Shown here in pieces: positions 10 to 22,061 of a stretch of 22,061 nt of DNA. The first letter of the stretch is position 1. Each line of letters starts with the position of its first letter. Source of the stretch: a virus; IMG/VR virus record IMGVR_UViG_3300019135_000004, positions 1-22,061 of that record. One strand, 5' to 3'. The translations under genes and the position numbers were made by a program. The notes under the pieces were generated by a model that ran no database searches, had not been told where the DNA came from, and worked only from the letters and a program-made list of their open reading frames with translations.

Positions 10-83
10 GCCCGAATAGCTCAGCCGGTTAGAGCACTTGACTGTTAATCAGGGGGTCGTTGGTTCGAGTCCAACTTCGGGCG
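10..83 (+). tRNA. tRNA-Asn (anticodon GTT)
   Basis: A complete cloverleaf is visible. The 7-bp acceptor stem (GCCCGAA with TTCGGGC) is perfect, the D stem is GCTC/GAGC, the anticodon stem is CTTGA/TCAGG around loop CTGTTAA, and the T stem GTTGG/CCAAC closes a TTCGAGT loop. The anticodon GTT at 44-46 and discriminator G83 fit asparagine. CCA is not encoded; the next bases are CATAAAA. It lies on the plus strand, opposite to and convergent with the late operon. It may be phage-borne or a host tRNA at an attachment site; only nine bases precede it, so this cannot be decided. Confidence 0.95.
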
Positions 84-84
84 C

Positions 85-3506: not shown

Positions 3507-5284
3507 TAGATCCTCTCAGCTAGGTTGCGGAAGCCCTGCTCAATCATTCGCTGACGGACAGCCTCTCTCGGGGCGCCCTTCTGGATTGCTTCTCTTGCTT
3601 GCTTGAGCATGTCGCCCCCCTTCTGGAACGCTTCTCGGTACTCCTTGCTTGCCGCCTTTGAGCCCGTAGCACGCACCGGGTCATAGCCGTACTGCTCTGC
3701 CATTTCTCCGTACTGCTGGGTGTATTCATTGATTCGATTGGTCGCCACATCCCGGAGCTGTGCAGCTGAGGAAAGAAACAATTTCCGCTGCTCGGGGTTC
3801 AATCGCTCGCCATTCAGGGCTTTGTTGTAGGCATTCCGCACGTTGTCATCCAGGCCGCCGGTGTTTTGCGCGGTGGCGAACTCGCCTTCGCGCACCACTG
3901 AGCCAGGGTCAAGCATCTTCATGTATCCAAAGATCAATGCGAGATCATTCTGTGCTGTCGGCTTACTTGCAGCGGCCTCTACCTTGTTGTACGCATTGAT
4001 GACGGAGCGATCTTCCTTAATAAGGTCGCTGTATTCTTTGCGGATCGACATTTCGGCTTTGGCTTGATCCGCAGGCATCGGGTTGTTTTTGCGATCAGCC
4101 GGGCCGCCGGGAATCGGAGTCAGCGAAGCTCCATCCGGACCCCATGTGTAACCCGAAGGTGGGGCGCGATCAGATTCTTCCCTCGCCTTCGCGGGCCTGC
4201 GCCCAATGCGCGAATCGGTGAGCGTGCCGGGTGCGCTTATCCGAGAGGTTTCATTGTTTCGGTTGCGCCAACTCGCTGCATATGGGCCGTACTTGCTGGG
4301 GTCCCTTTGGATAAGGCTGTCGTAGTGCTGCTGGCGCAGGGCCGCAAACTGCTGTGGGTCTCCGCCAGACGCGGCAATCCATTCCTTAGCGCGCCCTGGG
4401 CCTTGGTTTACAGCCGCATCCATCGCTGCCGCTTGGATGGCGGGCGGTAAAGAATCGCCGCCGATCACGTCCCAGTAGCGAGCACGGTACAGCTCCTTGG
4501 CCTTTTCTGGCGTGAGATTGGCAACATCCACGTCAGGATTGGCGCGGGAGTTTATGCCAAAGTTGGTCGGACCTGCGCCCGCATCGTTGGCAACGTAGCC
4601 GCCCTCGCGCTTCAGCAGGGGGTCTATGACGGTATCGAACCCGCCACCCATTACCGGGTTGCTCGGGTCCTGCGGAGCCTGCCCCTGGTCCGGTGCAAGC
4701 AGTCCGCCACCGATAGGATTGCCCTGCAAGTCCTGCATCTGTCGGCTTTGCTTGTTTACCCACACGTCCAACAGGCCGCCTTGGCCGTCACCCACCTGCG
4801 CGAGCGTCCAGTCCTGTTTTTCCTGCTTGGGGGCCAGGGCATCACGTATGCCCTTGGCTCGATCGGGATCAATCGCCGCGAGCTGGTTATACACGCCCAT
4901 GTCGAGGTTTCCATCTGCGCCGATGGCCTTCGCTGACAGCTCCTCAATTTGAGAATTCCGCTCCATGCCCTGGCGAGTGCGCCCAAGAATTTCGTTCTTG
5001 TATTTCTGGTTTTCGATGTTCTGCACGCCATCCTGCATGGACAGCAGCCCGCCCTAGATGCCCTGCCCCAGCGCACTGCCGAAGCCGCCGCCGTTAGATA
5101 GCAGGCTGGTGCCCAAGCTAAGCAGGCCCTGCCGAAATAAGGCCTTCTTTTGATCATCCTCCAAGCCCTCGGCGGTTGGATTCAGGCGGTCAAACAGGCC
5201 CGCGTACAGGCTGCGCTTCTGCGGTTCAACGCCAAGCGCGGCAACGCCAGCGCGCGGATTGAAAAACGTCGGGACATTGATCAT
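3506..5284 (-). CDS. Virion-associated muramidase-like protein (GH108-type domain), one in-frame TAG
   Basis: This 592-residue protein starts at ATG 5284, preceded by a strong GGAGGAAAGTA ribosome site, and ends in TAA overlapping the next ATG. Residues about 215-350 resemble the glycosyl hydrolase 108 muramidase family: a KREGGYV segment with the likely catalytic Glu near residue 227, a TNFGI motif, DVANLTPEKAKELYRARYWD, and an aromatic-rich end. The rest is Gln/Ala-rich helix, as in tail or internal proteins that locally open peptidoglycan during DNA entry. TAG at codon 77 (5054-5056) lies in frame just before the continuous ORF that begins at 5038. The start at 5284 is preferred over the upstream GTG at 5302 because of the ribosome site. 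Confidence 0.85.
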
Positions 5285-6201
5285 TACTTTCCTCCGCCCC
5301 ACATGCTGGCCAGAAGTGCCGCGTAACCTGCCGCCTGCTGGCCCCTCGACTGATAATTCGGGTTTGGCGCGCTAGACGTTTGCGTGCCGCCCTGAATCGT
5401 TCCCAGCGCGTTACCCAGCAAGCCGAGATTATTCTTGTCCCAATCGCGCTGCTCCATGAAAGCGGCGCGGTCGTCGTCGATGGCGCGCTGGTACAGGTCC
5501 TGCTGCTGCCCACCGGCCGCCGCGAGGGACGCCGCGTCCTTGTAGCCCATGCCCTGGAGGGTCGGGAGGAAGCCGATGGCCTCCATCTGGTTGCGCTGCT
5601 GGTCGCCAAAGAGACCGGCATTGCGGGCCAAATCCTGCTGCTGGCGCCCCAGTGCGCTCTCCTGCAAGCTCACCTGCCGGTCGTAATCCTGACTGCGCAA
5701 GCCGGTGGAGATGCGGCCCAGCTGCCCGGCGAGCTCGCCCTAGGCACCCTGCATCGCCTACTGCATCGCGCTGCCGCCGTAGGCGCCGGCAGCATTGAAC
5801 TGTGACAGGTAGGAAGGCACAGTCGAATTGGTGAAAGACTGCGTTACGTCGCCCTGCGCATCGGAGATCATCTGGTCCAGATACGGGTTCTGGCCTGCGT
5901 ACTGATTCGTGCCGCCCGTCTGCCCGAGGTAAGGGTTCGCGTTGCCGCCCTGTATCGTCTGGTTGAGGTAGCTCCCCGCCATCTGCTGCGACTGCCCATT
6001 GCGCGCAGCGTTGTCGCGCACCATGTCAAACGACTGCATCTGGTCGTCATTGAACCCCGCCACCGTGGGGCCGCCGTAACCCTGATACGGCCGATTCATC
6101 ACGTCGTTAGTACGGTTTAAATGGTCCTTGAAGTAACCAACAGACCATGCAGGCGGGTCGTTCGTGGTGGTGGTGGTGCTCTACTTCTTCTGTTTGCTCA
6201 T
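5284..6201 (-). CDS. Gln-rich tail/internal virion protein, three in-frame TAGs
   Basis: This 305-residue protein starts at ATG 6201, which shares ATGA with the upstream gene, and ends in TAA overlapping the next ATG. TAGs lie at codons 7 (6181-6183), 148 (5758-5760) and 154 (5740-5742). The N-terminus reads MSKQKK-X-STTTTTNDPPAWSVGYF. A Thr/Ser tract followed by PPAW is a start seen in podovirus virion proteins. The last two TAGs fall in a Gln-rich helix (SAMQ-X-AMQGA-X-GELAGQ), which favours glutamine. The protein is rich in Asn, Gln and Gly, with helical repeats towards the C-terminus. Its place beside the muramidase and FDDL protein suggests part of the ejection or tail-core set; the exact function is unknown. 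Confidence 0.82.
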
Positions 6202-6602
6202 GGCTGGATCTCGTAGGTCGCTGAGATAAGGGGGTAGCGTTTCGCCCATCCCGGACGCGGGGAGCCGAAGGTGATGGAGGTGACGCCCATGCGGCGGGCC
6301 GTCTCCTTGATCAGCCCCTCGCCGGCCTCGAACACGTCCGCACCGCCGGCATTGTGAGCAATCCACACGTGCAAGCCTGGCGTGCGGGTGAACTCGGCGT
6401 GTTCGGGGCGAATCACCAGCAGGCCGGCGTAGCTGCCTGCGCTGTAAACCGCATGGCAGGCAACCTGCCCCGACTGGATCGCGTGGTACACGTCCTCGGC
6501 GATCCAGTCTTCCGGCGCCTTGTCCTGCACCGCATCGAGAGATGCCTTGATATTGGGCCAGTGGGCGCGCAGCTCGTTAGGCGTTACAAGTACAAAATCC
6601 AT
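6198..6602 (-). CDS. Small GNAT-like acetyltransferase-type phage protein
   Basis: This 134-residue protein starts at ATG 6602, with GGGGAA about seven bases upstream, and ends in TGA overlapping the next ATG (ATGA). The order of elements (N-terminal helices, a LLVIRPEH strand, HVWIAHNAGG, then GEGLIKETARRMGVTSITFGSPRPGWAKRY) resembles small GNAT-fold proteins found among podovirus structural genes. An R/Q-x-x-G-x-G/A acetyl-CoA loop is not clear, so catalysis is uncertain. No TAG is present. The stop of the upstream gene abuts its ATG directly (TGAATG), which implies translational coupling. Confidence 0.7.
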   Translation of the reverse strand: MDFVLVTPNELRAHWPNIKASLDAVQDKAPEDWIAEDVYHAIQSGQVACHAVYSAGSYAGLLVIRPEHAEFTRTPGLHVWIAHNAGGADVFEAGEGLIKETARRMGVTSITFGSPRPGWAKRYPLISATYEIQP

Positions 6603-8955: not shown

Positions 8956-9243
8956 TTAAACCTTCCCGCGCCAGATTCGGAAGCCGGACAGCGCCGGGTC
9001 GTTGAGCATCTCGCGGATATGCGGCGAGTTGGCGCGCATCATGTCTTGCATGGTGACGCCGGGATGGTCGGCCAAGTACTTCTCAATGAGGGCAAACGGC
9101 AGCTTGGCTGCGTGCTTCATCTCGCTACTGCCCACCTATCCGATGGACTGCAGCGCCTTACAGTGCTCTAGGATCGGCTCACAGTCCTACGAACGGCGCT
9201 CAATCACATCATCGCCGTCCATCCACATGCCGGTCGTTTTCAT
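8956..9243 (-). CDS. Small conserved-type phage protein near the capsid gene, two in-frame TAGs
   Basis: This 95-residue protein starts at ATG 9243 with GGAG nine bases upstream. Its TAA stop directly abuts the GTG of the adaptor gene. TAGs at codons 19 (9187-9189) and 36 (9136-9138) are read as sense. The pattern VIERRS-X-DCEPILEHCKALQSIG-X-VGSSEMKHAAKLPFALIEKY resembles small proteins placed after podovirus capsid genes, where a Gln-Asp start to the helix is usual. No continuous ORF exists in this stretch under the standard code, so it would be missed by normal gene finding. It is the first gene after the capsid terminator. Function unknown. Confidence 0.72.
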
Positions 9244-9301: not shown

Positions 9302-10237
9302 TTAGCTCAGGTCACGGATGACCGCGTGCGCGTCCTTATTATCCATGCACAGGCCCCATTCCATCGTCATCAGCATCTTCTCGGCGTCGCCGGTCTTAGC
9401 CAGCGGCTTGGACTCCAGCGGGCGCAGAGTCTTCATGGAAACGTGGTCCACGTCGATCAGATACGCAGCCGAATCCAGGAAGCGCGAGGCCACGATCTTG
9501 ATCTCACCGAAGTCGCCAACGTAGATGTCGTAAGCCGCCTGGAGCTTATTGGCCTCGACCTTCTGGAAGCGGGTGGCATTGCCGGTGAACGCGGATGCCT
9601 TCTGCTTATCGACGCCGCGAACCAGCAGGACGCCGGGGTATCCGCCTGCAGTCCATGCCTTCTGCTGGGCATCTTTCAGCATCACCTCATCGAACACACG
9701 GGCTGTGCCCGCCACTGGGGCGGTATTGGTGAGCGGGTTGGGGAATGCACCCACACCAGCGCCCACCGAACCCTGGGTGATCCAGCCAGCCAGGCCGCGA
9801 GTCTGACGGGCAGTGCCCAGCGCGCCCGCGTTGAACGTGGTGTTCTGGCACAAGCCCACTTCCACGTCATTGAGGATTTCCTTGGTCTTCTTGACCTTCT
9901 GATAAGCGATCTCACGCGCTCGCCCCGCCTTGTCCACAATCTCCTCGGTGTCGGAGATAATGAAGTTCTTGGTGCTGATCTGGGTGTAGTTGCCCCAGCG
10001 CGTGGTCGGGGTGACGGCGGTGAAGGTGGTTACATCGTCGCCTTCGATCTGCGCGTTGTTGGCCGCAGTGTTCAGCGCATCGGTCTGCCATTCGAAAAAG
10101 CGGGCCGAGCACTTCGACTTCTTGAGCATCGAGCTAAGCGGACGCTCGGTCGGGCTGATCGTGTCGATCAGGTCGGACAGGTCTTCCCTCTAGCCGATAG
10201 CGGCGTAGGTGGTGAAGGTATTAGTTACAACTGCCAT
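9302..10237 (-). CDS. Major capsid protein (DUF5309/SU10-type), one in-frame TAG
   Basis: This 311-residue protein starts at ATG 10237 (AAGG about ten bases upstream) and ends in TAA, followed by a terminator. The N-terminus MAVVTNTFTTYAAIG-X-REDLSDLIDTISPTERP matches the start of the SU10/DUF5309 capsid family, in which a polar residue precedes REDLSD. X is TAG at codon 16 (10190-10192). Other family-like segments are FEWQTDAL, TRWGNYTQI, GRAREIAYQ, TRGLAGWI and the C-terminal EWGLCMDNKDAHAVI. If TAG stopped translation, only a 15-residue peptide would arise from this start, and the next ATG (10129) would give a product lacking the conserved N-arm. It forms the icosahedral shell, assembled on the scaffold encoded just upstream. 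Confidence 0.93.
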
Positions 10238-10239
10238 GA

Positions 10240-11175
10240 TTATTTGCCTTGTCGTGCGAGCAGCCAGTTCACTGATGCGTCGGGGCTGTGTGTTCGCTTG
10301 GCGACACGTAGCAGCTCCTCAGCACGGGACTTGCCCTGCTCAGGTTTAGGTACGGAAGCGCCAGGTCGCATGACCTTCGGCGGCTCCTGCTTGGTTTGTT
10401 TGGCCTTGGCGGCCTTCAGCTGGGCGAACTGAGCTGCATCTCGTGCGATCAGTAGCGCCCTGTGGTCTTGGAGCGTGGCAAGCTCATCGGCGGTGTACCC
10501 CTTTTCGATTAGGTACTCGGCGATCAACTTTTGTTCATCCGCTGCCTTGGCCTTGTCGCGCCACTCGGGCAGTGCGGTACTCAGCGCCTTGCGCTCGGCT
10601 TCCACCCATTCCGCATGCTGCCGTTCCTGCTCAGCGGTCTGCTGGCTGGCGATGGCTTGGCTCTGCTGGACCAGCTGGTTGAACTCTTGCGCACGCTCTT
10701 GGAACTTGGCGTTCTCGATCACCCACGAATGGGGATCGGTCTGCGCCAATTCAGCAAGGGCCTTTTGGTCACCGATCAGCTGCTTCTGCGCTAGCTGCAG
10801 GGTCACGTTTACCTCGTTGGCGTAGAAACTACGCTCGCGGCTAACGGTCTCTGCAAGTGCTAGGGCTTCCCGCTTGGCCTTGGCAACCTCTTCGGTCTTG
10901 CGCCTGTAATCTGCATCCTTCATGTACCCGGCTTTCAGCTCCGACTTGCGGAGCTTCAAATCGTCGCCCAGGTCAATCTCGGGATCTTCGTCTTCGACGG
11001 GAACTTCCGCCTCTTCTTCCTCGGATTCGGCCGCCCCTTCGGCAACCTCCCCCTCTGCCTTGTCGGGATCGGCCTCTTCAGCCTATTCCTGCGGCTCGCT
11101 GCGGCTTAACAGAAGCTCTAGCGAGGCGTCATCGCCGTGCTGGAGTTCCGATGTCTCGGTTGACTCGTCAATCAT
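10240..11175 (-). CDS. Scaffold protein, one in-frame TAG
   Basis: This 311-residue protein starts at ATG 11175 (GGAAG upstream) and ends in TAA two bases before the capsid ATG. The first 85 residues are strongly acidic (runs of Glu and Asp). They are followed by a long charged helical region rich in Lys, Glu, Gln and Ala (for example EEVAKAKREALALAETVSRE), and a basic C-terminus (SRAEELLRVAKRTH). An acidic N-part, coiled coil and basic capsid-binding tail placed directly before the capsid gene are characteristic of phage scaffolds. TAG at codon 31 (11083-11085) sits in the acidic stretch SEPQE-X-AEEADPD. The scaffold directs procapsid assembly and leaves before DNA packaging. Confidence 0.88.
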
Positions 11176-12046: not shown

Positions 12047-12228
12047 TTGGCGTCTCCTGCCTTAGCCTCTAGCGCGGCAATGCGACGCTCTAAGTCGATG
12101 ATGTACGGCTGCAAATCGATGATGTACCAGCCAAGCTCCTCAAATGAGCTCGTTGATCTAATATTAATGGATGGCCGATTAACTGCCTTCTGGATGACAG
12201 GCTGGGAATCTCTGTCGCTCTCACTCAA
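12043..12228 (-). CDS. Small protein with C-terminal coiled coil, TTG start
   Basis: This 61-residue protein probably starts at TTG 12228, which has AGGAGA six to seven bases upstream; no ATG or GTG gives a better start. It ends in TGA within the next gene's ATG. The C-terminal half (GWYIIDLQPYIIDLERRIAALEAKA) is a short leucine/isoleucine heptad likely to oligomerise, after a disordered N-terminus. It overlaps the portal stop by eight bases. Function unknown. Confidence 0.62.
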   Translation of the reverse strand: MSESDRDSQPVIQKAVNRPSINIRSTSSFEELGWYIIDLQPYIIDLERRIAALEAKAGDAK

Positions 12229-14347
12229 ATGACTTCTCCTGCGGTCGGTTGGCGGCGCTAATCACCTGAGCCTCGGCCGCTATCCGCGCCGTCTCGATGG
12301 CCGTCTCGCGGGCAATCTGCGCCTTGAACTGCTCAAGCTCCATCTGCTTGTCGATCTTGTACTGCTCCAGCTGCATCTCGTTCTGCATCTGCTGGGCGTT
12401 GCGCTCAGCCTCCAGCTGCGTCTCCTGCATCGCCTGCTGGGCCTGCGACTCCTGCCGCATCTGCTCAACCTGGATATCGACCTGCCCCTTCAGCTGGGCC
12501 AGCTGCTGGGCGCCTTCCTGCTTCATCCGCTCGATCTCGATCGCAGGATCCGGTGGAGGCGGCGGAGGCGGCTGCGGATTCGGGTCTGGCGCGGTGAAGA
12601 ATTGGTCGCTGTCCTTGTAGCCCAGCTCTTCAGTCAGGCGGGTCGCCGTGTTGTAGAGATTGATGGGCGTGACCATGCCCGGAATCCCCGCCATCAGCAG
12701 CTTCTCTTGCGCCTGGCCGATCATCTGCAAGGCGCTGGCTCGCTGCTGCTTGCCCAGCGTCCCGACACCCACGCTCACCGTCATGTCGTACTTGTTCTTC
12801 CACTCGCGCGGGTCGATCTGGAGCCACCGTCCGTTGATCTTCACCTGCTGGGCGCGGTTCTGATACTGGCTGACGTTCTTCAGCATCAGCATCCACATGC
12901 GCTTAATGCCCGTCTCGGCCAGTACACGGGCCACCAGCTCAATTCGCTGGGCGCCCTGCTGCATCAGCGCCATCGCGCCCTCGGAGCCCACATTGGACTT
13001 GCTAAGCGCCTCTGCGTTGAGGTTGGAGTTCATCTCCGTAACGCCGGTCCGAGTGTCGCGGATGGCGTCGATCTGGTTGATGATCTCCATGCCGGCGGCA
13101 GCGATGAAGGGCGTAGTGATATCCCGCGTCGAGCCCAGCGCCTTGACCCGCACGATGCCGCCCGGACGGGGCTGCAGCAGGTCATCCAAGTTCACCTGCC
13201 CCTCCACAACCTCCGTGCGCTGATTGTTGGACAGGTACACGTTGTCCAGCATCTGGCGCATCAGCACCGTCTTGATGCGCTGCAGGTCTTCCACAAGATC
13301 GTACAGGCTCAGGCCGATGATCTTGTAGGGCATGAGGATCGGGGAGAACAGGGCGAACGGATGATCGTCAGTCACCTCATTCTCGAATACCGTGGTTCCT
13401 GCCTTCACCACGCGGCGATACTCGGCGATTCCGTCGCTGTCCACGTCGCACTTGATGTACGCCTCAGTGACGGTCACCTGGCGCTGCGAATCGTCTCCGG
13501 GGTCTGAGCTGTCGTAGTCCGAGCTGCCATCGTAGTCGTGGCGACCCCGGCGCTCTTCGAGCATTTCGGGCGACTCATCCGAAGGCAGGGCCTCTACATC
13601 CTGCTTGTCATAGCCCAGGCTCAGCAGGTCGCTCACGCTCATCTGCCGGCGGTGGCAGATAAAGCGCAGGTCCGTGATGGACCGCGCATCCTTGTTGATC
13701 AGGATCTCCTCCGGCGGGCAGCCTTCCGCCCGGAACTCCATCACCTGCTCCTCGCGCTTGGCCTTGACCATGTAGGTCATGAGCAGCTCAGGCGGCATGC
13801 CCTCCATTTGCGCGGCCTGCGGGACTTCGCCATAGGGCACAACCTCGACTACCTCAATCTCCGGGTCCATCTCCAGCGCCTGAACCTCAGGCATGGACAG
13901 GCCTTCGTAACGCTCCTCACGCTCGTCCCATCGCTTATCGCAGTAGACCTTCACCACGCCCATGCGTGTCATCAGAGACGACTTGATGGCGTCGTGGAGG
14001 AGCGTGAAGCCCTCATTCTTTCGGTTGATCAGGTAGCCAACGTAGGTCGTGGCGTCCTCGCACGCCCTGTCGTCCTCGGGCGTCTCAGGCTCGAACCGGA
14101 TAATGTCGTCCGACCCGGCGAACATGCGCATCAGGCTCGGCATCATCCATTCGATCGTATCCATCAGGTCCTTGGATACGACCTTGGACCGCCCCTAGAT
14201 GGCAGGCGGGGCCAGCTCGCCCACCGCCTCGCCCATGTAGAACTCCATGGCACGGGCGCGCTGGTGGCTGGTGTAGTCGTCAGAGCCGATGGCGTTTGCG
14301 GCCTCCTTGTCGATCAGGCGGCAAAGCTCGTCGTCGGTCATCTTCAT
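12221..14347 (-). CDS. Portal protein, one in-frame TAG
   Basis: This 708-residue protein starts at ATG 14347 (GGAG about ten bases upstream, ATGA shared with the upstream gene) and ends in TGA. It matches large podovirus portal proteins: an N-terminal helical wing, then GRSKVVSKDLMDTIEWMMPSLMRMF, an acidic clip/wing region, DLVEDLQRIKTVLMRQMLDN, DTRTGVTEMNSNLNAEAL, and a long Gln/Glu-rich C-terminal barrel helix from about residue 590. A poly-proline stretch precedes that helix. TAG at codon 51 (14195-14197) lies in APPAI-X-GRSKVVS, immediately before the most conserved motif; translation stopping there would lose the whole portal. The dodecameric ring forms the DNA entry channel and docks the terminase. 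Confidence 0.92.
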
Positions 14348-14541
14348 GCAAACAGGCTCCACAGCAGGGCCGCAATGGGGTACGCCAGTGCGAGCACCGC
14401 TCCGACGATGAACATCCACGCGCCCACAAGCATTTGTCTGTAGTGGCTGTCCTCGGCCGCTTTATTGCGGACCACGCGTACGATGCCCAAGCCTACATGG
14501 GCGAGGTGCGGATAGCGGTTAGGCGGATTGAGCCTGTGCAT
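14344..14541 (-). CDS. Small membrane protein
   Basis: This 65-residue protein starts at ATG 14541, directly after the upstream stop (TGAATG), and ends in TGA overlapping the portal ATG. The C-terminal half (MLVGAWMFIVGAVLALAYPIAALLWSLFA) is a convincing transmembrane helix, and the N-terminal half is basic. It could be a small inner-membrane effector such as an exclusion or accessory lysis protein, but nothing beyond topology supports this. Confidence 0.6.
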   Translation of the reverse strand: MHRLNPPNRYPHLAHVGLGIVRVVRNKAAEDSHYRQMLVGAWMFIVGAVLALAYPIAALLWSLFA

Positions 14542-14811
14542 TCAACTGATCTCAAGTGCGCGGATGGACTTCAGCTGTTTGAGACGCGGCTTGCCACTGA
14601 CCAAGCCCGCCACGACCATCGCATCGATCTTGCTGCCCACTTCCTGCACCCACCGAGGGACCGCGACGGGGCGCGCCTTGCCAGTAATCCAATCAAATCG
14701 CCGCTCCCATGCATCGTCCGGCCATTTAGCTTCAGCCTCTCGCACAAAAGAATCGGACAGGCGGACCTCGCCGTGATCGGTCTGATAAATGTGAAACTTG
14801 GGGATGTTCAT
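14542..14811 (-). CDS. Hypothetical protein between terminase and portal genes
   Basis: This 89-residue protein starts at ATG 14811, joined to the terminase stop by TGATG, and ends in TGA directly before the next ATG. The sequence mixes short strands and helices (FHIYQTDHGEVRLSDSFV, then WPDDAWERRFDWITGKARPVAVPRWVQEV). I do not recognise a family. It is part of a continuous coupled run from terminase to portal. Confidence 0.65.
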   Translation of the reverse strand: MNIPKFHIYQTDHGEVRLSDSFVREAEAKWPDDAWERRFDWITGKARPVAVPRWVQEVGSKIDAMVVAGLVSGKPRLKQLKSIRALEIS

Positions 14812-16076
14812 CAAGCTACTCGCAAGTCAGGATAGTTAAGGGTGCCGCCGTAGCTCTCGTTCACCATCTGCTCGGCGATCGTCGCCATGTAGCGGAAGGC
14901 ATCGGCGCCATGGCTCCATTCGTCATGGACCGGACGCCCAGGCTCGCCCGTGGTCGTGGGCACGCCGCGCCGGTATCTGCGCAGGCACTGGATCAGCCGG
15001 TCAGTCTTGCCCTTGTCGAAGTACACACGCGGGAATACGGAGCGCGCCTTGCGTATGCCGTCCTCTAGCGCACCGGGATAGGTCGGGATCACCTGCGCAT
15101 CCCAGCCTAGGGCCTGCATCATCTGCTGCGCGCTCTGGCCGGTCTTGTAGTCCCCGTGCGCGCCGTCATGCGGCAGCCATAGCGTGCCCCAGTTGTGCCC
15201 GCGCATCTTCAGCTCGTTGCTGCACCAATCGAGCGTCTTTTGGTTGACCTCGATGTATTCGAGCACGCGCACCTCGGACAGATGCCGCTAGGCGAGGATG
15301 ATGCCCATCGAGTCATTCCAGCCCAAGTCGAAGATGACGTGCACCTTGAACTTAGGGTCGTACGGCAGGTTGCAGATGCGCCCGGCCTCAACCGTCTCCG
15401 CCACCTGGCCGGCGTAGATCGCGCCCGCCACCGCTGGCTTGCACTTGCCCAGCCAGATGTTGCCGTAGTCCGCATCCGACATTGTGGCTTGGGCGTGCCG
15501 GCGCTCATCGTCTAGCACCTTCGGGAACCACGGGTTCTCCGAGTAGTTCACCTGCACCACGATTGAATCCGGCGGCGGGTTCGCCACAAACCGGACATAG
15601 GTCGGGTCCGTGTCCAGCTCCGGGTTCATGCCGATCCATATCTCGGACCCTTCCTTACGGATGGTCGGGATAAGCACGTTCCAGCTGCGGTCGCTGACGT
15701 TCTGGCCTTCCTCAACCCAGGCGCGATCTAAGCCCTCTAGCGACTTGATCGACTCGACCGTCTGGTCGCTTAGGCCGGCAAACAGGAACTCGGTCCCGTT
15801 GCGGCCCCTGATAACGTCCCGTTGCACCTCGTAGAACGCGTGCAGGCCCATCTTGTCTATCTGGTCGCCCAGCAGCTTGTGCACGGAGTCCTTGATGGAC
15901 TTCTGCACCTCGCGGAAGCAGCCAACGCGCAGCGGCCTCTCCAGGCCCTAGATCAACAGCGCAGCCGCAAAGCTCCACGACTTGCCGCCACCTCGCCCGC
16001 CGTATGCTACCTTGTAGCGGTACGGCTCGAATAGGCAGCCGAGCTTTTCCGGGATCTCAACTCTGAGCTTTGACAA
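14811..16076 (-). CDS. terL: Terminase large subunit, two in-frame TAGs
   Basis: This 421-residue protein probably starts at TTG 16076, giving M-SKLRVEIPEKLG, inside the end of the upstream gene; no closer ATG exists. Walker A is GGRGGGKS (residues 26-33) and Walker B is LDRAWVEE (about 116-123). The RNase H-like nuclease part shows IFDLGWNDS and a late HGADAFRY acidic site, matching PBSX-like terminases. TAGs at codons 43 (15948-15950; AALLI-X-GLERPLR) and 263 (15288-15290; GIILA-X-RHLSEV) join three in-frame pieces. Stopping at the first would leave only the Walker A strand. The protein cuts and pumps DNA into the procapsid through the portal encoded two genes downstream. Confidence 0.93.
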
Positions 16077-16320
16077 GGGTCACCGTAATCCCATCGAACA
16101 GCGGGGCGCTCGGGTCGCTGGCTAATGTCATTGGCAGCACCTTACCCACCAATGTCAAAAACGCGGCGGGGTTTGCGTCCGCCTACTTGACCAGGTATGC
16201 CACACCGCCCTTCTTGTCCAGCGCAGCAAGAATCATCGCCTTTACGTCGCCGCTCAACTTATTGGGCGTGTTCTTGCCTCGCCCTCCAGTCTTTGGGGTT
16301 CCGGGCTTGCGGCCAGCCAT
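16057..16320 (-). CDS. Small terminase-like DNA-binding protein, one in-frame TAG
   Basis: This 87-residue protein starts at ATG 16320 and ends in TGA within the terminase start region. The N-terminus MAGRKPGTPKTGGRGKNTPNK is a basic motif typical of small proteins directly before PBSX-type large terminases. It is followed by a helix (LSGDVKAMILAALDKKGG) and ADANPAAFLTLVGKVLPM. TAG at codon 46 (16183-16185) falls in AYLVK-X-ADANP, where related proteins, as I recall them, have Gln (YLxRQAxxNP). It probably acts as or with the small terminase subunit in packaging-site recognition. Standard decoding would give only the first half. Confidence 0.8.
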
Positions 16321-16529: not shown

Positions 16530-17159
16530 TTATTTGATCATCTTTCTGTCGAGCATCCGGGGATGCGAGGTGCCGCCGCCTGCCGAGCCCCACGACAAAT
16601 GGCCTTGCGAGATGGGGCCGAGGCCCGAGAATCCGCGAGCCGTGCTGACCGTTTGGCTTTGGCCGCCAAGGTTCGGAGCGCCGCCGTTGAATACGCCACC
16701 ACTGAGACCGATGTCAGCCGAGTTCCACCGTGCGCCCGGATTAGGCGCAGGCATCGGGGGCGAGGCTGGCTAGTAGCTAGGCATCACGCCGCGCGTGAAA
16801 CCTAGGTTAGACGGCCCTTGGAAGCCGCCACGGTCTACCGCTATGGGCTCGCGCTGTACTGGGCTTATCTGCGGGCCGCCGAATCCGTTTCCGTTCCTGT
16901 CCAGCACGCCGCGCAGTGGACCGGAGCCGTGCAGTCCGTTACCTACTACGTTCAGGGCAGTGCCCGCGCCCGGCAGCACAAAGTTCAGGATGCGCGAGCC
17001 CACGCCGCCGATAACCTGTCCCGGCGTGGCGCTAATGCGGCCTGTCTGCCTATCGTAGTTGTTGCCCCACACCGCGCCGTCCACAACGCGCCCGAAGAAG
17101 TTGCGTATGAAGCCGGGCCTCTAGGCGGGCTAGCCCTACTGCGCTGGAGCTGGGTTCAT
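16530..17159 (-). CDS. Gly/Pro-rich structural-type protein, four in-frame TAGs
   Basis: This 209-residue protein starts at ATG 17159, which overlaps the stop of the upstream small ORF (ATGA), and ends in TAA. Three TAGs lie within six codons near the start, at codons 8, 10 and 13, giving MNPAPAQ-X-G-X-PA-X-RPGFIRNFFGRV. With X as Gln this is a normal Pro/Gln/Ala linker. A fourth TAG is at codon 130 (16770-16772). A helix-like segment (ATPGQVIGGVGSRILNFVLPGAGTAL) is followed by a low-complexity Gly/Asn/Pro C-terminal half. Such composition suits a minor virion or head-decoration protein, but no family is recognised. Confidence 0.72.
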
Positions 17160-17305
17160 CGCGGAATCTCTATTGGGTCACCGGGCCACCAGGCTTCGGT
17201 AACTTGGGCGCCGGTCTCGGCATCAAGGTATGTGGCGGGGGCGGAGGGAATCGCACCCTCATTACGGGAGTTAGAAGCCCGATTAAGCACCTAAGCGCGC
17301 CCCAT
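17156..17305 (-). CDS. Coupled 49-codon ORF that encloses the CTA tRNA, one TAG
   Basis: The ATG at 17305 shares TGATG with the HNH stop, and the TGA at 17156 shares ATGA with the next gene, the same coupling seen across this operon. TAG is codon 5 (17291-17293). The predicted protein runs MGRA-X-VLNRASNSRNEG and then APATYLDAETGAQVTEAWWPGDPIEIPR in pieces; the C-terminal half looks protein-like. The first 24 codons coincide with the tRNA-like cloverleaf on the same strand, so this DNA would encode both a peptide and an RNA. Either the ORF is real and the locus is dual-coding, or coupling has arisen by chance in a GC-rich spacer. No homology is recognised. Confidence 0.45.
17236..17304 (-). 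tRNA. Candidate amber-suppressor tRNA (anticodon CTA), Gln-like
   Basis: A 69-nt cloverleaf followed by encoded CCA (17233-17235). The acceptor is TGGGGCG with CGCCCCC: six pairs, U1 opposite C72. The anticodon stem CGGG/CCCG has one extra mismatched position around loop TTCTAAC, giving anticodon CTA at 17274-17272. The variable region is four bases. The T arm GAGGG/CCCTC has a TGCGATT loop, and the discriminator is G. U1, G2-C71, G3-C70, G73 and U35 are known glutaminyl-tRNA synthetase identity features. Oddities: a very short D arm (TTA/TAA), no U8, and G where T55 is usual. Its 5' end abuts the HNH stop codon. It would read the TAG codons of the structural genes, probably as glutamine. Confidence 0.7.
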
Positions 17306-17724
17306 CAATAATAGGTCCGCCAAGTGTTCGCCCGGAGGGCAGTCACCCTTCGGTGGCAGTTGGCGCATCGGACCTGGCATTTGTCTATCTCTTCGGTAAG
17401 CGTGGTTCGCCCAGCGCCGTTCGCTACCATCGCCGAAATGCAATTAATCTTCGTTCCGGACACATGGTCAAAGTCGAGCACAATCACGTCGGACTCGCCG
17501 CAGTCCACACATGGATTACTTCGGAGATGCTCTATCACGAACCTGCGGGCTTGATCTATTGCCCGAGCTGCATTATCTCGATATCTCTTCTTGTTGCGCG
17601 CGTAGTAGGGCTCGTTAAACCTAACCCTGAAGCATGGCTTACAGTACGCCAGCCTGGGCTTCCCGTGTCTCTTCGGGAACTCCTCGGCTGGCTTCTGTAT
17701 CTAACAGTTCCCGCAAACTGGCAT
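17305..17724 (-). CDS. HNH endonuclease-like protein, one in-frame TAG
   Basis: This 139-residue protein starts at ATG 17724 (AGGAG eight bases upstream) and ends in TGA. It has an N-terminal zinc-ribbon-like CGNC...CKPC, with TAG at codon 8 (17701-17703) right after the first Cys pair. A basic helix (YYARNKKRYRDNAARAIDQARR) follows, then the HNH-type core NPCVDCGESDVIVLDFDHV...KCQVRCANCHRRVTA. Both Cys pairs and the D-F-D-H motif are present. HNH proteins beside terminase genes are known to assist terminase in several phages, so a packaging role is plausible; a homing nuclease is the alternative. It is the first TAG-bearing gene of the transcript, and the CTA tRNA begins at its stop codon. 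Confidence 0.87.
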
Positions 17725-17953
17725 CGTTGCCGCTCCTGCTATCTTTTGCATCCCCCGGTAACGCGGCCTCATATCGGGAATCTGCCAGCGCCCGAAACAC
17801 CGACGCGCGCTTCTTCAGCACGTACTCTCGTACCGCCTTTAGCGCCTCAAGGCCCTCCAGAATCTCGGCGGCGATATCCCGCTTGGCGTCACGCGCCTGC
17901 AGATCTTCGCCAGCCCCGGACTTCGGGCGCGGGGCTGAGCCTTTACCTGCCAT
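17639..17953 (-). CDS. Small charged helical protein
   Basis: This 104-residue protein starts at ATG 17953 (MAGKGSAPRPKSG), which overlaps the end of the upstream gene by 11 bases. The more distal ATG at 18013 would extend far into that gene and is less likely. It ends in TAA, 86 bases inside the HNH gene. The N-terminus is basic and disordered, followed by a helical segment (DAKRDIAAEILEGLEALKAVREYVLKKR). The overall look is of a small DNA-binding or terminase-associated protein, but no family is recognised. Confidence 0.6.
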   Translation of the reverse strand: MAGKGSAPRPKSGAGEDLQARDAKRDIAAEILEGLEALKAVREYVLKKRASVFRALADSRYEAALPGDAKDSRSGNDASLRELLDTEASRGVPEETREAQAGVL

Positions 17954-18579: not shown

Positions 18580-18878
18580 CTCCACCCCTTGAACTTGTCC
18601 GCCCAGCTCTTCAGCTCAACCCGATGCGCGTCCAGGCACTCCGCCGTAGCCGCACGCTTGTTCTCGCTGTCCTCATACGCCCCAACCGCGCCAACGTAGG
18701 CCTTGGCCCACCTGCGGTAATCCGTCGAATCAGGGGGCGGAGGCGGAGTCAGCGCAATCGACCGCTCGCTGCACCCGGCTATGGGCGCAGATGGCACGCT
18801 GATAGGCTTCCCGCGACTCGCGCAGGACGGCAGGGTCAGCAGGACCGTCAGCAACAGGATTGGCCTGTATAACCACAT
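18576..18878 (-). CDS. Outer-membrane spanin lipoprotein (Rz1-like)
   Basis: This 100-residue protein has a hydrophobic signal sequence (YRPILLLTVLLTL) and a lipobox LPSC with the lipidated Cys at residue 19. It also has a Pro-rich segment (LTPPPPPDSTD), typical of o-spanins. It starts at ATG 18878 inside the i-spanin gene in another frame and runs 154 bases beyond its end, an overlapped spanin arrangement. With the i-spanin it would bridge the periplasm and fuse the inner and outer membranes in the last step of lysis, implying a Gram-negative host. At 100 residues it is longer than lambda Rz1. Confidence 0.82.
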   Translation of the reverse strand: MWLYRPILLLTVLLTLPSCASRGKPISVPSAPIAGCSERSIALTPPPPPDSTDYRRWAKAYVGAVGAYEDSENKRAATAECLDAHRVELKSWADKFKGWR

Positions 18879-19122
18879 CGATACTCTCCACGGCCCGCTG
18901 TGTCCGCTGGCCTGTCTGTTCGGATTCGCGCTCTACTCGGCGCTGGGTGTCTACGCTGATCGCGACCGACCGCTCGACCTGCTTAGCCGCCCTGGCCTGC
19001 GCCTTGACCGTCGCCCGTGCTGCATTACCCGAACTATCGCGCTTAGCGCAGGACCAGCCGATACCCAGCAGCAGCAGGACCAGCCCGGTCAGGAGTGCCA
19101 GCTTGATTTGTGCTGGGGTCAT
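18730..19122 (-). CDS. Inner-membrane spanin (Rz-like)
   Basis: This 130-residue protein starts at ATG 19122 (TGATG with the upstream gene). It has an N-terminal transmembrane helix at about residues 7-25 (KLALLTGLVLLLLGIGW). A periplasmic coiled-coil-like region follows (ARAAKQVERSVAISVDTQRRVERESEQTGQRTQRAVESIDVVI), and the end is a Cys-containing C-terminus (CAHSRVQRAVDCAD). Length, topology and the overlapping lipoprotein gene fit an i-spanin. It acts with the Rz1-like partner after endolysin has cleared the cell wall. No TAG is present. Confidence 0.85.
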   Translation of the reverse strand: MTPAQIKLALLTGLVLLLLGIGWSCAKRDSSGNAARATVKAQARAAKQVERSVAISVDTQRRVERESEQTGQRTQRAVESIDVVIQANPVADGPADPAVLRESREAYQRAICAHSRVQRAVDCADSASAP

Positions 19123-19355
19123 CAGAATATCGACTCCACGTCTGCGCAGCCGGATTCAACCAGCTGCGTGAGGATTGCAAACCGAACCTCGTCTACCACG
19201 AACGACTTGTATTCGGGCGAGTCCATGCGGTCCATCGCCATCAAAAGCTCGGCCACGTTGTAAGCAATCTTTCTGTCGCTGAAGATTCCGGCGCAACTGT
19301 TGTTTAGTGGCGAGGTCCCGCTAACGAGCGTCAGCCTGTACCCAATCCCACCCAT
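19122..19355 (-). CDS. Hypothetical protein inside the lysis cassette
   Basis: This 77-residue protein starts at ATG 19355, sharing TAATG with the protease stop, and ends TGATG into the i-spanin gene. It contains YRLTLVSGTSPLNNSCAGIFSDRKIAYNVAELLMAMDRMD and an acidic C-terminus. No signal peptide or membrane segment is evident. Its tight coupling to lysis genes suggests co-regulation, but the function is unknown. Confidence 0.65.
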   Translation of the reverse strand: MGGIGYRLTLVSGTSPLNNSCAGIFSDRKIAYNVAELLMAMDRMDSPEYKSFVVDEVRFAILTQLVESGCADVESIF

Positions 19356-19918
19356 TACCGCGCCGCCTCCCACTGCTCAGGCGTGAACACCAGCCGGTGC
19401 GCATACCCGAAGTAAAATATCTGGTGCCCGTACACGCCCGACACCACGCCTACTACCCGGCCGTTACGGAACAGGCCAGCGCCCGAGTCGCCGAGCCATA
19501 GGCGCGCATCCAGCATCACCTTGTCCGCCTTCACACCCGTGACGTAGCCCCGCCGATACTGATCCCGCATGTCCAGCGGGTTACCGAAAAACTCGAAGTC
19601 CTCGCCTTGCCTCAGCTCCGGCCCCACCTCAGCCCATACGGGCGCCGGAGTCGTGACCTTGACCAGCGCGTGGTCCGCGCCGTCATGCTCGATATGCACA
19701 ATCCCGGCTATCGTGCCGTTGATCGATACCAGCTTGTCCCCGGCCCTGAAGCAATGGCTAGCAGTCAGCAGAGTGCTAGGCCCTACGTAAGTAGCCGAAC
19801 AGCTGCGGGATGCGGCGTCGAATTCGATTACTCTGACTGCGTCCTTGGGGTTGAACGGTGGCGGTGCCGTTTGGCAGCCAGCCAGGGCTAGGATTAGGAG
19901 GGCGGCGAGGGCTTTCAT
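19355..19918 (-). CDS. Trypsin-like serine protease lipoprotein in the lysis cassette
   Basis: This 187-residue protein starts at ATG 19918 (ATGA with the endolysin gene). The signal peptide MKALAALLILALAGC ends in a lipobox with Cys15, so a lipid-anchored periplasmic or outer-membrane protein is expected. The chymotrypsin-fold triad is visible: TASHC (His55), ADHALVKV (Asp82) and GDSGAGLF (Ser145). Other chymotrypsin-fold features include VGVVSGVYGH near the end. All catalytic residues are intact. A secreted lipoprotein protease between endolysin and spanins is unusual. It could degrade envelope or host proteins during lysis, or act in superinfection exclusion. The enzyme class is clear; the biological role is inferred. 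Confidence 0.87.
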   Translation of the reverse strand: MKALAALLILALAGCQTAPPPFNPKDAVRVIEFDAASRSCSATYVGPSTLLTASHCFRAGDKLVSINGTIAGIVHIEHDGADHALVKVTTPAPVWAEVGPELRQGEDFEFFGNPLDMRDQYRRGYVTGVKADKVMLDARLWLGDSGAGLFRNGRVVGVVSGVYGHQIFYFGYAHRLVFTPEQWEAAR

Positions 19919-20433
19919 GACTGCTCCGCGCGACACTTGGCATGGCGCTCAATCTGCCGCGCCCACACGCCCCAGCACCGCTTATTGGGCTGTCCGTTGA
20001 TTTTGGTAGAACAGTCGTATCCGGCCGCCTTGCGCCATTTCAGCAGCGCATCGCAGGCCGCGCAGTAATTGCCCGCCAGCAGCTGGCGGCGCATGGATGA
20101 GGACAGCCAATTGGCGATCCCATACTGGTAGACAAAATCCATGTACAGGTCGTATTCGCCCTGCGTCAGCTTCACGCCAGGCAGCGAGTCACGAAACCGC
20201 GATTCCTCACGGCCTAGATGCGCCTGCACTACCCGCAGGGCGCGCACAGGGTCCGTCTTGTCGCCAATCTGCACGCGGGTTCCGTCCTCGCGCACCGTGG
20301 AGCCGTAGCCCACCGTAGGACGGTCGCCCTTGGTCGGGACCACGGCCGTCTCGGTGTAGCCCTCATGCACTGCCATGCCCACAAGGCCAGCGGCGCTAAG
20401 GCTCAGGGCGGCGACCAAGATACGGACCTTCAC
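19915..20433 (-). CDS. Endolysin, GH24 lysozyme with N-terminal SAR-like segment
   Basis: This 172-residue protein starts at GTG 20433, overlapping the holin stop (GTGA), and ends in TGA. The N-terminus MKVRILVAALSLSAAGLVGMAV is a weakly hydrophobic Ala/Gly/Ser-rich segment of signal-anchor-release type. The catalytic region HEGYTETAVVPTKGDRPTVGYGST follows the E...GD-PT-G-GST pattern of phage GH24 muramidases, with Glu24 as likely acid. FVYQYGIANW and several Cys residues near the C-terminus fit this family. It cleaves peptidoglycan after membrane depolarisation by the holin encoded just upstream. No TAG is present. Confidence 0.9.
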   Translation of the reverse strand: MKVRILVAALSLSAAGLVGMAVHEGYTETAVVPTKGDRPTVGYGSTVREDGTRVQIGDKTDPVRALRVVQAHLGREESRFRDSLPGVKLTQGEYDLYMDFVYQYGIANWLSSSMRRQLLAGNYCAACDALLKWRKAAGYDCSTKINGQPNKRCWGVWARQIERHAKCRAEQS

Positions 20434-20666
20434 TCGCTCGCCTCCGGCTTCAGCCCCAACTTGGCGGCAAACTTCCTACGGTCACGCAACGGGAGTATCC
20501 ACTTCCACACAATGTGGTGAATCAACAGCAGGACCGTGTAGATAATCGTCAGCGTGAATACCCAGTCCTGTAGCGACATCCCCGCCACCGAAGCGACGAT
20601 CACGGTTGTGGGTGGGGAGAGCTTCACCGCAGCGGCGGCCATGCTCTCCTGCGCGTTGTCCTGCAT
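20430..20666 (-). CDS. Holin
   Basis: This 78-residue protein starts at ATG 20666 (AAGGAAT about nine bases upstream) and ends in TGA overlapping the endolysin GTG. It has one or two membrane segments (TTVIVASVAGMSL, and WVFTLTIIYTVLLLIHHIVW) and a short basic tail (LRDRRKFAAKLGLK). Size, topology, charge and position before the endolysin fit a small phage holin. It would permeabilise or depolarise the inner membrane at the set lysis time. Longer upstream starts would run into the tRNA-Trp and are rejected. Confidence 0.83.
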   Translation of the reverse strand: MQDNAQESMAAAAVKLSPPTTVIVASVAGMSLQDWVFTLTIIYTVLLLIHHIVWKWILPLRDRRKFAAKLGLKPEASE

Positions 20667-20687
20667 GTGGTGGATTCCTTGATATGG

Positions 20688-20760
<73 letters not shown>

Positions 20761-20860
20761 GAATAATTCCCGGTTACGCTTTCCGGGGCTGGTTTTACAG
20801 CCGAATTGCCTGCCGTCTCTAGCGGCGCCGAACCAGTGTCGGGCGGATGAGGGCGCAGTT

Positions 20861-20991
20861 CAAATTGCTTGTGGGCGTGGGCGGCCACCGGCTTCTTTAA
20901 TCAGGCACATGTTTTTAATGTCACCGCTTACCCTTGGCGGGACTGCCTGCACCACTTACCAGCACTGGGCTCGACGCCCACAAGCAAAACT
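20861..20991 (-). ncRNA. Structured repeat unit 1 (14-bp closing stem)
   Basis: TTGCTTGTGGGCGT (20865-20878) and ACGCCCACAAGCAA (20974-20987) form a perfect 14-bp terminal stem. Inside, AGGCA/TGCCT encloses ACAT/ATGT and CCGC/GCGG hairpins, a three-way-junction-like fold. The right arm is followed on the plus strand by AAACTA and the left arm is preceded by CAAA, as in the other units. Strand is inferred from context. Confidence 0.5.
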
Positions 20992-21106
20992 AAATTGCTT
21001 GCGTCGAATCTCGGACATCCGTCAATTCGGCGTTTACATGGGCTTATCGGCTACCCAATACGTTTCCCCCAGCCGACAGCTACAGGGGCCGACGCAAGCA
21101 AAACCT
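20992..21106 (-). ncRNA. Structured repeat unit 2 (12-bp closing stem)
   Basis: TTGCTTGCGTCG (20995-21006) and CGACGCAAGCAA (21090-21101) form a perfect 12-bp stem. It shares the GCTTG/CAAGC core with unit 1 but has different inner bases with matching changes on both arms. Inner elements include TGGG/CCCA, CGGCT/AGCCG and CCCC/GGGG, which cross and could form a pseudoknot. AAACCTA follows the right arm. Confidence 0.5.
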
Positions 21107-21150
21107 ACCCCGACCGCGTGCCTGGGGCAGAGACGGTACCGGGGCGTACA

Positions 21151-21262
21151 CAAAATGCTTGTGGCCTCGGAGTTCCCGGCGACCCACGTCTCTGGCAGCA
21201 GCTCTTAATTGTGCTGCGGAAGTGGCTGAACATCCGGGCTCTGTACCACAAGCAAAACTAAC
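21151..21262 (-). ncRNA. Structured repeat unit 3 (9-bp closing stem, rod-like)
   Basis: TGCTTGTGG (21156-21164) and CCACAAGCA (21246-21254) form the closing stem. Inner paired blocks GAG/CTC, CCCGG/CCGGG, CCAC/GTGG and GCAGCA/TGCTGC follow in order, giving a long rod-like hairpin. AAACTAA follows the right arm and CAAAA precedes the left. A separate hairpin (ACCCCG/CGGGG-GT) occupies the 45-nt spacer to unit 2. Confidence 0.5.
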
Positions 21263-21350
21263 CCTGCGCCGTGCCGTCCCGATCAGGCCGCACGGCAGCA
21301 TAATCACCCGAAGGTGCGGGATGCCAGGGCCGAAGCCCGCAGGTAACTCA

Positions 21351-21377
21351 ATAAAAACCCCGCCGGTTAGGGCGGGG
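21351..21377 (-). terminator. Rho-independent terminator downstream of the Q-like gene
   Basis: On the minus strand a perfect 7-bp stem CCCCGCC/GGCGGGG with a six-base loop is followed by TTTTTATT. It lies about 200 bases after the stop of the HTH gene and before the structured RNA units, tRNA-Trp and lysis genes. It could end the regulator's transcript or serve as the tR'-type terminator that a Q-like protein overrides. Confidence 0.85.
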
Positions 21378-21576
21378 CTATGAGGCTTGAAGCTAACTGG
21401 ATTTCAGGTCCAGCGCGGGCATTGTCACAAGCCGCATGGAATGGATCGGCATATCGTCTCTGTTGAATTAGGGGCGCCCCGCCGGTTATGGCTTGGCCGC
21501 AACGTGGAGCGCGCCGGGAAGCTGTACGGGGCTAGGCGAAGTAATCGCCACCCGCACACACTAATGCCACAATCGC

Positions 21577-22061
21577 TTATGCGCGGGTCCGTTCATAAAA
21601 AATAACTTGGCGGTACGCGGCGCCCAGCTGGCACCAATACATCTCCAGGCTCCCGCGCAGGCTGGCGTAGATATGGCGACGCAGGCGGCTGTACGTGCTG
21701 TGGTGGACGCCCAGGGACGCAGCCACCTCCCGGTAGGTGTGCTCCGCCCTCGGGTTCAGCAGCATATTCAGCGCATCCCAGGCCGCCACGGCCGCCAGCT
21801 CGTCGCTGTAGGCCTCCCGCCGCACTCCCCCGCTCTGCCCGTATGCCACCGCGAAGGCGACGGCCCAATACCGCAGGCGGGTCAGGTAGAGAGTGTCCCC
21901 AGCAAACACCGTCCGGTACAGCATCCAATTCGGGAAGCCGTTCTTCCACTCCATCCTCACTAGCCGGTCTGCGTCGATAATGGATTCGGTTACCGGGCCG
22001 ATTAGCGCGGTGTCGAAGTCATGGCCCCGGAGGTCATAATCCCCAATCGGCTCGGCCGCCT
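21577..22061 (-). CDS. Q-like late regulator / HTH protein, 5' end outside the window
   Basis: The frame is open from the window edge (22061) to TAA at 21577, about 160 residues; the true start is not in view. The GTG at 21960 is probably internal, because coding-like sequence (GDYDLRGHDFDTALIGPVTESIIDADRLV) continues upstream. It holds FPNWMLYRTVFAGDTLYLTRLRYWAVAFAV and a C-terminal helix-turn-helix (TYREVAASLGVHHSTYSRLRRHIYASL). Position directly before a terminator and the lysis cassette, plus the HTH, suggests a late-gene antiterminator or activator, but sequence similarity to known Q proteins was not established. No in-frame TAG is present, as expected if it acts before the suppressor tRNA accumulates. 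Confidence 0.6.
   Translation of the reverse strand, partial: AAEPIGDYDLRGHDFDTALIGPVTESIIDADRLVRMEWKNGFPNWMLYRTVFAGDTLYLTRLRYWAVAFAVAYGQSGGVRREAYSDELAAVAAWDALNMLLNPRAEHTYREVAASLGVHHSTYSRLRRHIYASLRGSLEMYWCQLGAAYRQVIFYERTRA

Follow-up and report, generated by a model that had tools for sequence, protein, structure and literature searches.

The locus and its parts

The window analysed here, that is, the whole stretch of 22,061 bases, is an IMG/VR virus record and represents an incomplete fragment of a phage. At 17304-17233 on its minus strand lies a 72-nt tRNA with anticodon CTA, the encoded CCA included, which we read as an amber-suppressor tRNA gene (CUA) on the basis of its cloverleaf, its covariation and its match to a model built from five relatives. 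Divided by structural element, the sequence is UGGGGCG C GC UUAGGU GC UUAAU CGGGC UUCUAAC UCCCG UAAU GAGGG UGCGAUU CCCUC CGCCCCC G CCA. It comprises the acceptor 5' half UGGGGCG, with U1 unpaired (17304-17298), which is the same as in the host tRNA-Gln(UUG) of Dyella; C8 and a minimal D arm, in which a G-C/C-G stem closes the 6-nt loop UUAGGU (17297-17287); the anticodon arm CGGGC-UUCUAAC-UCCCG (17281-17265), the loop of which carries U33, the anticodon CUA (17274-17272) and A37; a 4-nt variable loop; the T arm GAGGG-UGCGAUU-CCCUC with G55 (17260-17244); and the acceptor 3' half CGCCCCC, ending in C72, followed by G73 and the CCA (17243-17233).

The layout of a bacterial-type tRNA is met in the 7-bp acceptor stem, the 5-bp anticodon and T stems, the 7-nt loops and the CCA, with positions 1/72 and 31/39 unpaired, and is not met in the D stem, which has 2 bp where 3-4 bp is the norm, in C8 instead of U8, and in G55 instead of U55. 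A preliminary description, made from the sequence alone, had claimed a cloverleaf with anticodon CTA and encoded CCA on the late (minus) strand, the elements U1 opposite C72, G2-C71, G3-C70, G73 and U35, and a short D arm without U8 and with an altered position 55. All of these held, the cloverleaf both in the sequence and under the model of relatives. The interval it gave, 17236-17304, stops at G73, and the CCA adds 17235-17233; its cloverleaf also needs the correction of an additional C31/U39 mismatch in the anticodon stem. The D linker has one base more than that of the relatives.

The surrounding minus-strand genes overlap one another in a series, and the tRNA gene sits among them on the upstream side of the packaging genes. 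An HNH endonuclease-like gene with one in-frame TAG (17305-17772, minus strand) abuts it with its stop, and a 49-codon ORF (17156-17305, minus strand) holds it in frame.

TAG as a sense codon in the window

The 22 packaging and structural ORFs of the window contain 25 in-frame TAGs and none of the listed window genes ends in TAG, so the phage needs a tRNA of this kind. The affected genes, all on the minus strand, include those for the terminase large subunit (14811-16076, codons 43 and 263), a probable small terminase assigned by position and belonging to a PHROG of unknown function (16057-16320, one TAG), an SU10-like portal protein (12221-14419, codon 75), a head scaffolding protein with an in-frame TAG (10240-11175), an SU10-like major capsid protein (9302-10237, codon 16) and an ejection-like protein (5284-6366, three TAGs). 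When TAG was read as sense, full-length recognised proteins were obtained, namely the SU10-type capsid and portal, terminase, scaffold and ejection proteins. The in-frame stops in the homologue alignments were 588 TAG in comparison to 10 TGA and 6 TAA, the latter two counts serving as the control for TAG recoding. A search of eleven of these records for a release factor gene of the phage returned none.

The lysis genes (Rz-like spanin, lysozyme and putative holin) and an HTH protein, at 18730-22059 on the minus strand, have no TAG codons. For these upstream lysis and regulator genes the count was 0 TAG in 814 codons, with 3.5 expected (P about 0.03), which could fit a dependence on the suppressor late in infection only, although the evidence is weak and the protease gene of relatives, which does contain TAG, speaks against it.

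Other features were noted elsewhere in the window. Among the lysis genes there is a phage tRNA-Trp (20685-20760, minus strand) with CCA anticodon, its CCA end also being encoded; its anticodon mismatch rules it out as an amber reader. A tRNA-Asn without encoded CCA at the end of the record (10-84, plus strand) is nearly identical to a Dyella tRNA-Asn and is possibly an attachment-site copy. At 9136-9208 on the plus strand, antisense to the packaging and structural genes, the SAH riboswitch model of Rfam scored 24.8 bits, below its cut-off of 37, which is likely due to chance.

Related phages and covariation

A terminase query translated with TAG as Gln yielded 80 related IMG/VR loci, of which 11 have in-frame TAG within the terminase. 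A CTA tRNA was present just upstream of the terminase in all 11 recoded loci: in nine it was called by ARAGORN about 0.5-0.9 kb upstream, and in the remaining two, L013 and L020, this position is taken by a tRNA whose D arm is truncated in the same way as that of the window. ARAGORN called no CTA tRNA in any of the 69 loci without terminase TAG, some of which are short contigs. The larger count, in which 43 of 43 recoded terminase loci had a CTA tRNA, is biased, since some loci were fetched via the tRNA pattern, and the terminase-only 11 of 11 is the fair figure.

Pattern scans added the same D arm in L084, L094 and L097/L107; the match in L149 was rejected as chance, and those in L087 and L110, judged by eye, look like chance as well. 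The six distinct short-D tRNAs align readily, with CGC-NNR-GGTGC (the 2-bp D stem, including C8), GGGG/CCCC, G73 and UCUAA invariant among them. Compensatory changes were found in the anticodon stem, where they affect four of five pairs, in the T stem and in one acceptor pair. Paired cells amounted to 98.1%, the double-changed pairs numbered 7 in comparison to at most 2 in controls with slid partners, and the covariation score was 0.433 in comparison to no more than 0.074 with partners slid. Because the short D arm and C8 are conserved and G55 occurs in four of the six (the window, L013, L020 and L084), these are traits of the lineage and not signs of decay. The features for which the tRNA had at first been called divergent are thus present but shared among relatives. 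The suggested check by covariance with related phages showed that the helices covary; homologues and synteny likewise support the reading as a tRNA. L084 differs from the window phage in having a P22-type portal; its terminase and portal genes contain TAG, and upstream of them lies the same short-D tRNA.

One relative, L116, is a prophage of Dyella sp. SG609; it is recoded, with six in-frame TAGs in its terminase, and has the same kind of tRNA. None of the 49 Rfam-detected tRNAs of this strain has a CTA anticodon, which speaks against another canonical suppressor in that host. A second CTA tRNA, named in advance as an observation that would refute the reading, is likewise absent from the 22-kb record, which is a fragment, so that the rest of the phage could hold one. 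When 399 genomes of the Dyella order were searched with a short-D model, no second copy was found besides the Dyella prophage; the other matches, at 45 bits or less, were taken for ordinary tRNAs without individual checking. Dyella sp. SG609 with L116 is a possible laboratory system for induction experiments.

Detection by tRNA scanners and by a model of relatives

With default and moderately relaxed settings, ARAGORN called only the tRNA-Asn and the tRNA-Trp in the whole window and left the CTA tRNA uncalled; still more relaxed thresholds returned more than 100 meaningless calls, with the CTA cloverleaf still absent. The Rfam tRNA model RF00005, with the region searched alone, gave 18.7 bits, under the cut-off of 29, so the low scanner scores foreseen in the preliminary description were borne out. 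The minimum-energy fold holds the acceptor, anticodon and T helices, and the folding energy of the single sequence is not significant (z -1.2); without relatives the single sequence would be merely suggestive. We then consider a covariance model trained on the tRNAs of five related phages, the window being excluded, under which the site scored 75.6 bits in the window (E 4.2e-17, roughly calibrated), in comparison to 23.9 bits for the runner-up, the ordinary tRNA-Trp. Since the model came from five other phages and the next best score is so much lower, the site is beyond chance.

ARAGORN detected the short-D tRNAs with U55 (L094 and L097) and missed all four with G55. Within the terminase set it was blind to the tRNA of three of the 12 recoded phages, namely the window, L013 and L020, each of which has a conserved suppressor with minimal D arm and G55.

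The amino acid assigned to TAG

Over 159 TAG columns of the protein alignments, the summed log-odds were +214 for Gln, in comparison to -9.5 for Glu as the next best; as a control for the method, sense codons recovered their own amino acids. The window alone, with 14 columns, gave 15.1 for Q and 0.6 for the next best, the short-D phages without the window gave 56.2 and -7.4, and the columns favour Gln in each of the three tRNA classes. TAG thus stands for Gln in these proteins.

The tRNA itself points in the same direction. The acceptor of the Dyella sp. SG609 tRNA-Gln(UUG), UGGGGCG...CGCCCCA-G-CCA, differs from that of the window, UGGGGCG...CGCCCCC-G-CCA, solely at position 72 (A in the host, C in the window). 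L007, a relative with an ordinary tRNA, has the anticodon arm of the tRNA-Gln(CUG) of the same strain save for G36 to A. The Gln elements of bacteria are G73, U1-A72, G2-C71, G3-C70, G10, U35, G36, A37 and U38 (PMC9976931). The window tRNA keeps G73, G2-C71, G3-C70, U35, A37 and, with the D stem numbered by analogy, a G10-C25 pair; it lacks A72 (being U1/C72), U38 (being C38, as is also found in the host tRNA-Gln(CUG)) and, necessarily, G36. The acceptor features alone are no proof of Gln because the Trp identity elements overlap with them. The earlier assignment to Gln is supported independently by the protein columns and by the near-identical acceptor of the host tRNA-Gln(UUG), and it is likely that the window tRNA is charged with Gln by the host GlnRS, although this is inferred from identity elements and protein columns and there are no charging data.

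Inferred exchange of tRNA modules and the enclosing reading frame

The short-D tRNA is scattered over five separate branches of the terminase tree, and a single origin of this form is unsupported; exchange of tRNAs explains the scatter as well as repeated invention does. Near relatives carry unlike types, such as L020 (short-D), L005 (long variable arm) and L007 (ordinary), or L107 (short-D) and L114 (ordinary). L007 and L020 share 91% identity across the 400 bases that end at the first base of the tRNA, after which the tRNA bodies diverge. We infer that tRNA modules have been exchanged at a fixed slot, while the demands of Gln charging and UAG reading would keep the acceptor end and anticodon loop unchanged. 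The HNH gene of the window occupies the slot of the relatives' upstream GKGS..NWDRIFG gene, and HNH homing could conceivably help to swap the modules.

In the relatives the frame of this upstream gene (GKGS..RP..NWDRIFG) stays open through the entire tRNA in 11 of the 11 with a recognisable gene, and in most it extends past the tRNA into a conserved tail, IYIDADTGEQVTEDWWPG. The tRNA-encoded segment would give, in the L013 phage for example, the predicted peptide NVGAIPTTPAIYVDD. In the window the upstream half of the gene is missing, and the 49-codon ORF, with one TAG inside, takes in the tRNA and continues beyond it to the same tail (YLDAETGAQVTEAWWP); its ATG overlaps the TGA stop of the HNH gene and its own TGA overlaps the next ATG. 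As tRNA frames are open at an average rate of 0.515, the chance of 11 of 11 is roughly 7e-4, with shared ancestry ignored. The frame is kept across swaps among 71-nt short-D, 75-nt ordinary and 87-90-nt long-arm forms, the phase after the CCA being constant for tRNAs of 71, 75, 87 and 90 nt and the phase before it adjusting. Most of the differences in the tail affect the third codon position (127, in comparison to 38 and 45 at the other two). In several phages the protein tail itself contains TAG and so needs the tRNA, which raises the possibility of a self-adjusting switch. Under this bolder reading the suppressor tRNA is nested in a translated gene, and the late RNA is either cut to release the tRNA or read as mRNA; we regard it as tentative and would not favour it at present, translation of the tRNA stretch being so far hypothetical.

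Proposed function and alternative explanations

The gene, its conserved fold, the group of relatives, the reading of TAG as Gln in the proteins and the regular association with recoding are shown. We consider it very likely that the locus is an amber-suppressor tRNA of the phage, minimal in its D arm, which is charged with Gln and reads UAG in the packaging and structural genes, although its transcription, its processing, its charging and its suppression of UAG in the cell are inferred. The tRNA would be carried on the late transcript and trimmed from it by host RNase P and other tRNA-processing enzymes; host GlnRS would charge it with glutamine, and the charged tRNA would insert Gln at UAG in competition with host RF1, whereupon the TAG-containing packaging and structural genes would be translated in full. 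Tertiary contacts that an ordinary tRNA is assumed to make are lost with the changes in the D arm, C8 and G55, which leaves stability and efficiency uncertain, and partial decay of the window copy cannot be fully excluded in view of its 31/39 mismatch and extra D-linker base.

The alternative that survives best, and that we still regard as very unlikely, is a decayed or non-functional remnant, with UAG read by another suppressor or passed by leaky termination. It is favoured by the low Rfam score, the silence of ARAGORN, the one anticodon-stem mismatch and the incomplete record. Against it, the odd D arm, with G55 in three others, recurs in phages with diverged terminases together with compensatory changes, and the Dyella relative has no other CTA tRNA among its 49 Rfam matches and yet has its six terminase TAGs; the phage would pay a very high price if the 25 TAGs in its packaging and structural ORFs were passed by leaky termination.

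Charging of this UAG reader with tryptophan is all but excluded: the GGGG/CCCC acceptor (G2-C71 to G5-C68), G73, C34 and A36 match the Trp element list (PMC9976931), but the TAG columns of the short-D phages strongly reject W (-101 in comparison to +62.6 for Q), U35 replaces C35, and A1-U72 is absent. A pyrrolysine tRNA, suggested by the ARAGORN label of tRNA-Pyl for relatives, the compact D arm and the loop CUCUAAA in L013 and L020, can be set aside with the same assurance on the evidence of the anticodon and the protein columns alone, as the label follows merely from the CTA anticodon and Gln is the residue favoured at TAG columns in every one of the three tRNA classes.

Comparison with known systems

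Suppressor tRNAs of phages with TAG as Gln are already known, and proteomics of two crAss-like phages has demonstrated code 15 (TAG as Gln; PMC9523058). The short-D, C8 and often G55 form and its in-frame nesting were not found in the literature that we searched, with partial coverage. Like the Sup-CTA tRNAs of the code-15 crAss-like phages, the amber-suppressor tRNA proposed here is phage-encoded, has a CUA anticodon and serves TAG as Gln; unlike them, it belongs to a group of SU10-like phages and prophages of about 40 kb, one of them in Dyella, and the tRNAs of this group have a 2-bp D arm, C8, often G55 and a 1/72 mismatch, are missed by standard scanners and lie in frame within an ORF. It resembles the host tRNA-Gln in UGGGGCG/CGCCCC and G73, identical to the UUG isoacceptor of Dyella sp. 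SG609, and the anticodon arm of ordinary relatives resembles tRNA-Gln(CUG) save for G36 to A; it differs from the host tRNA-Gln in C72 for A72, the CUA anticodon, the truncated D arm and the altered T loop. The tRNA-Pyl has a CUA anticodon, a compact D arm and G73, which are common to the window tRNA, but the latter decodes Gln by the columns and has a 5-bp anticodon stem, a 4-nt variable loop and the 1/72 mismatch. Like the Theta-ribozyme-associated suppressor tRNAs of gut phages (PMC10879173), it would enable translation of TAG-containing genes; unlike in those, the CCA is encoded, and no ribozyme was matched by Rfam anywhere in the window.

In a survey of 715 phages for which the use of TAG for glutamine is predicted, a Sup-CTA tRNA was detectable in only 375, or 52% (PMC11210395). 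Because ARAGORN misses the window, L013 and L020 despite their conserved short-D suppressors, some of the missing suppressors of such phages may exist in forms invisible to scanners, which is testable with the short-D covariance model. The window tRNA would offer a natural and very compact amber suppressor of the GlnRS type.
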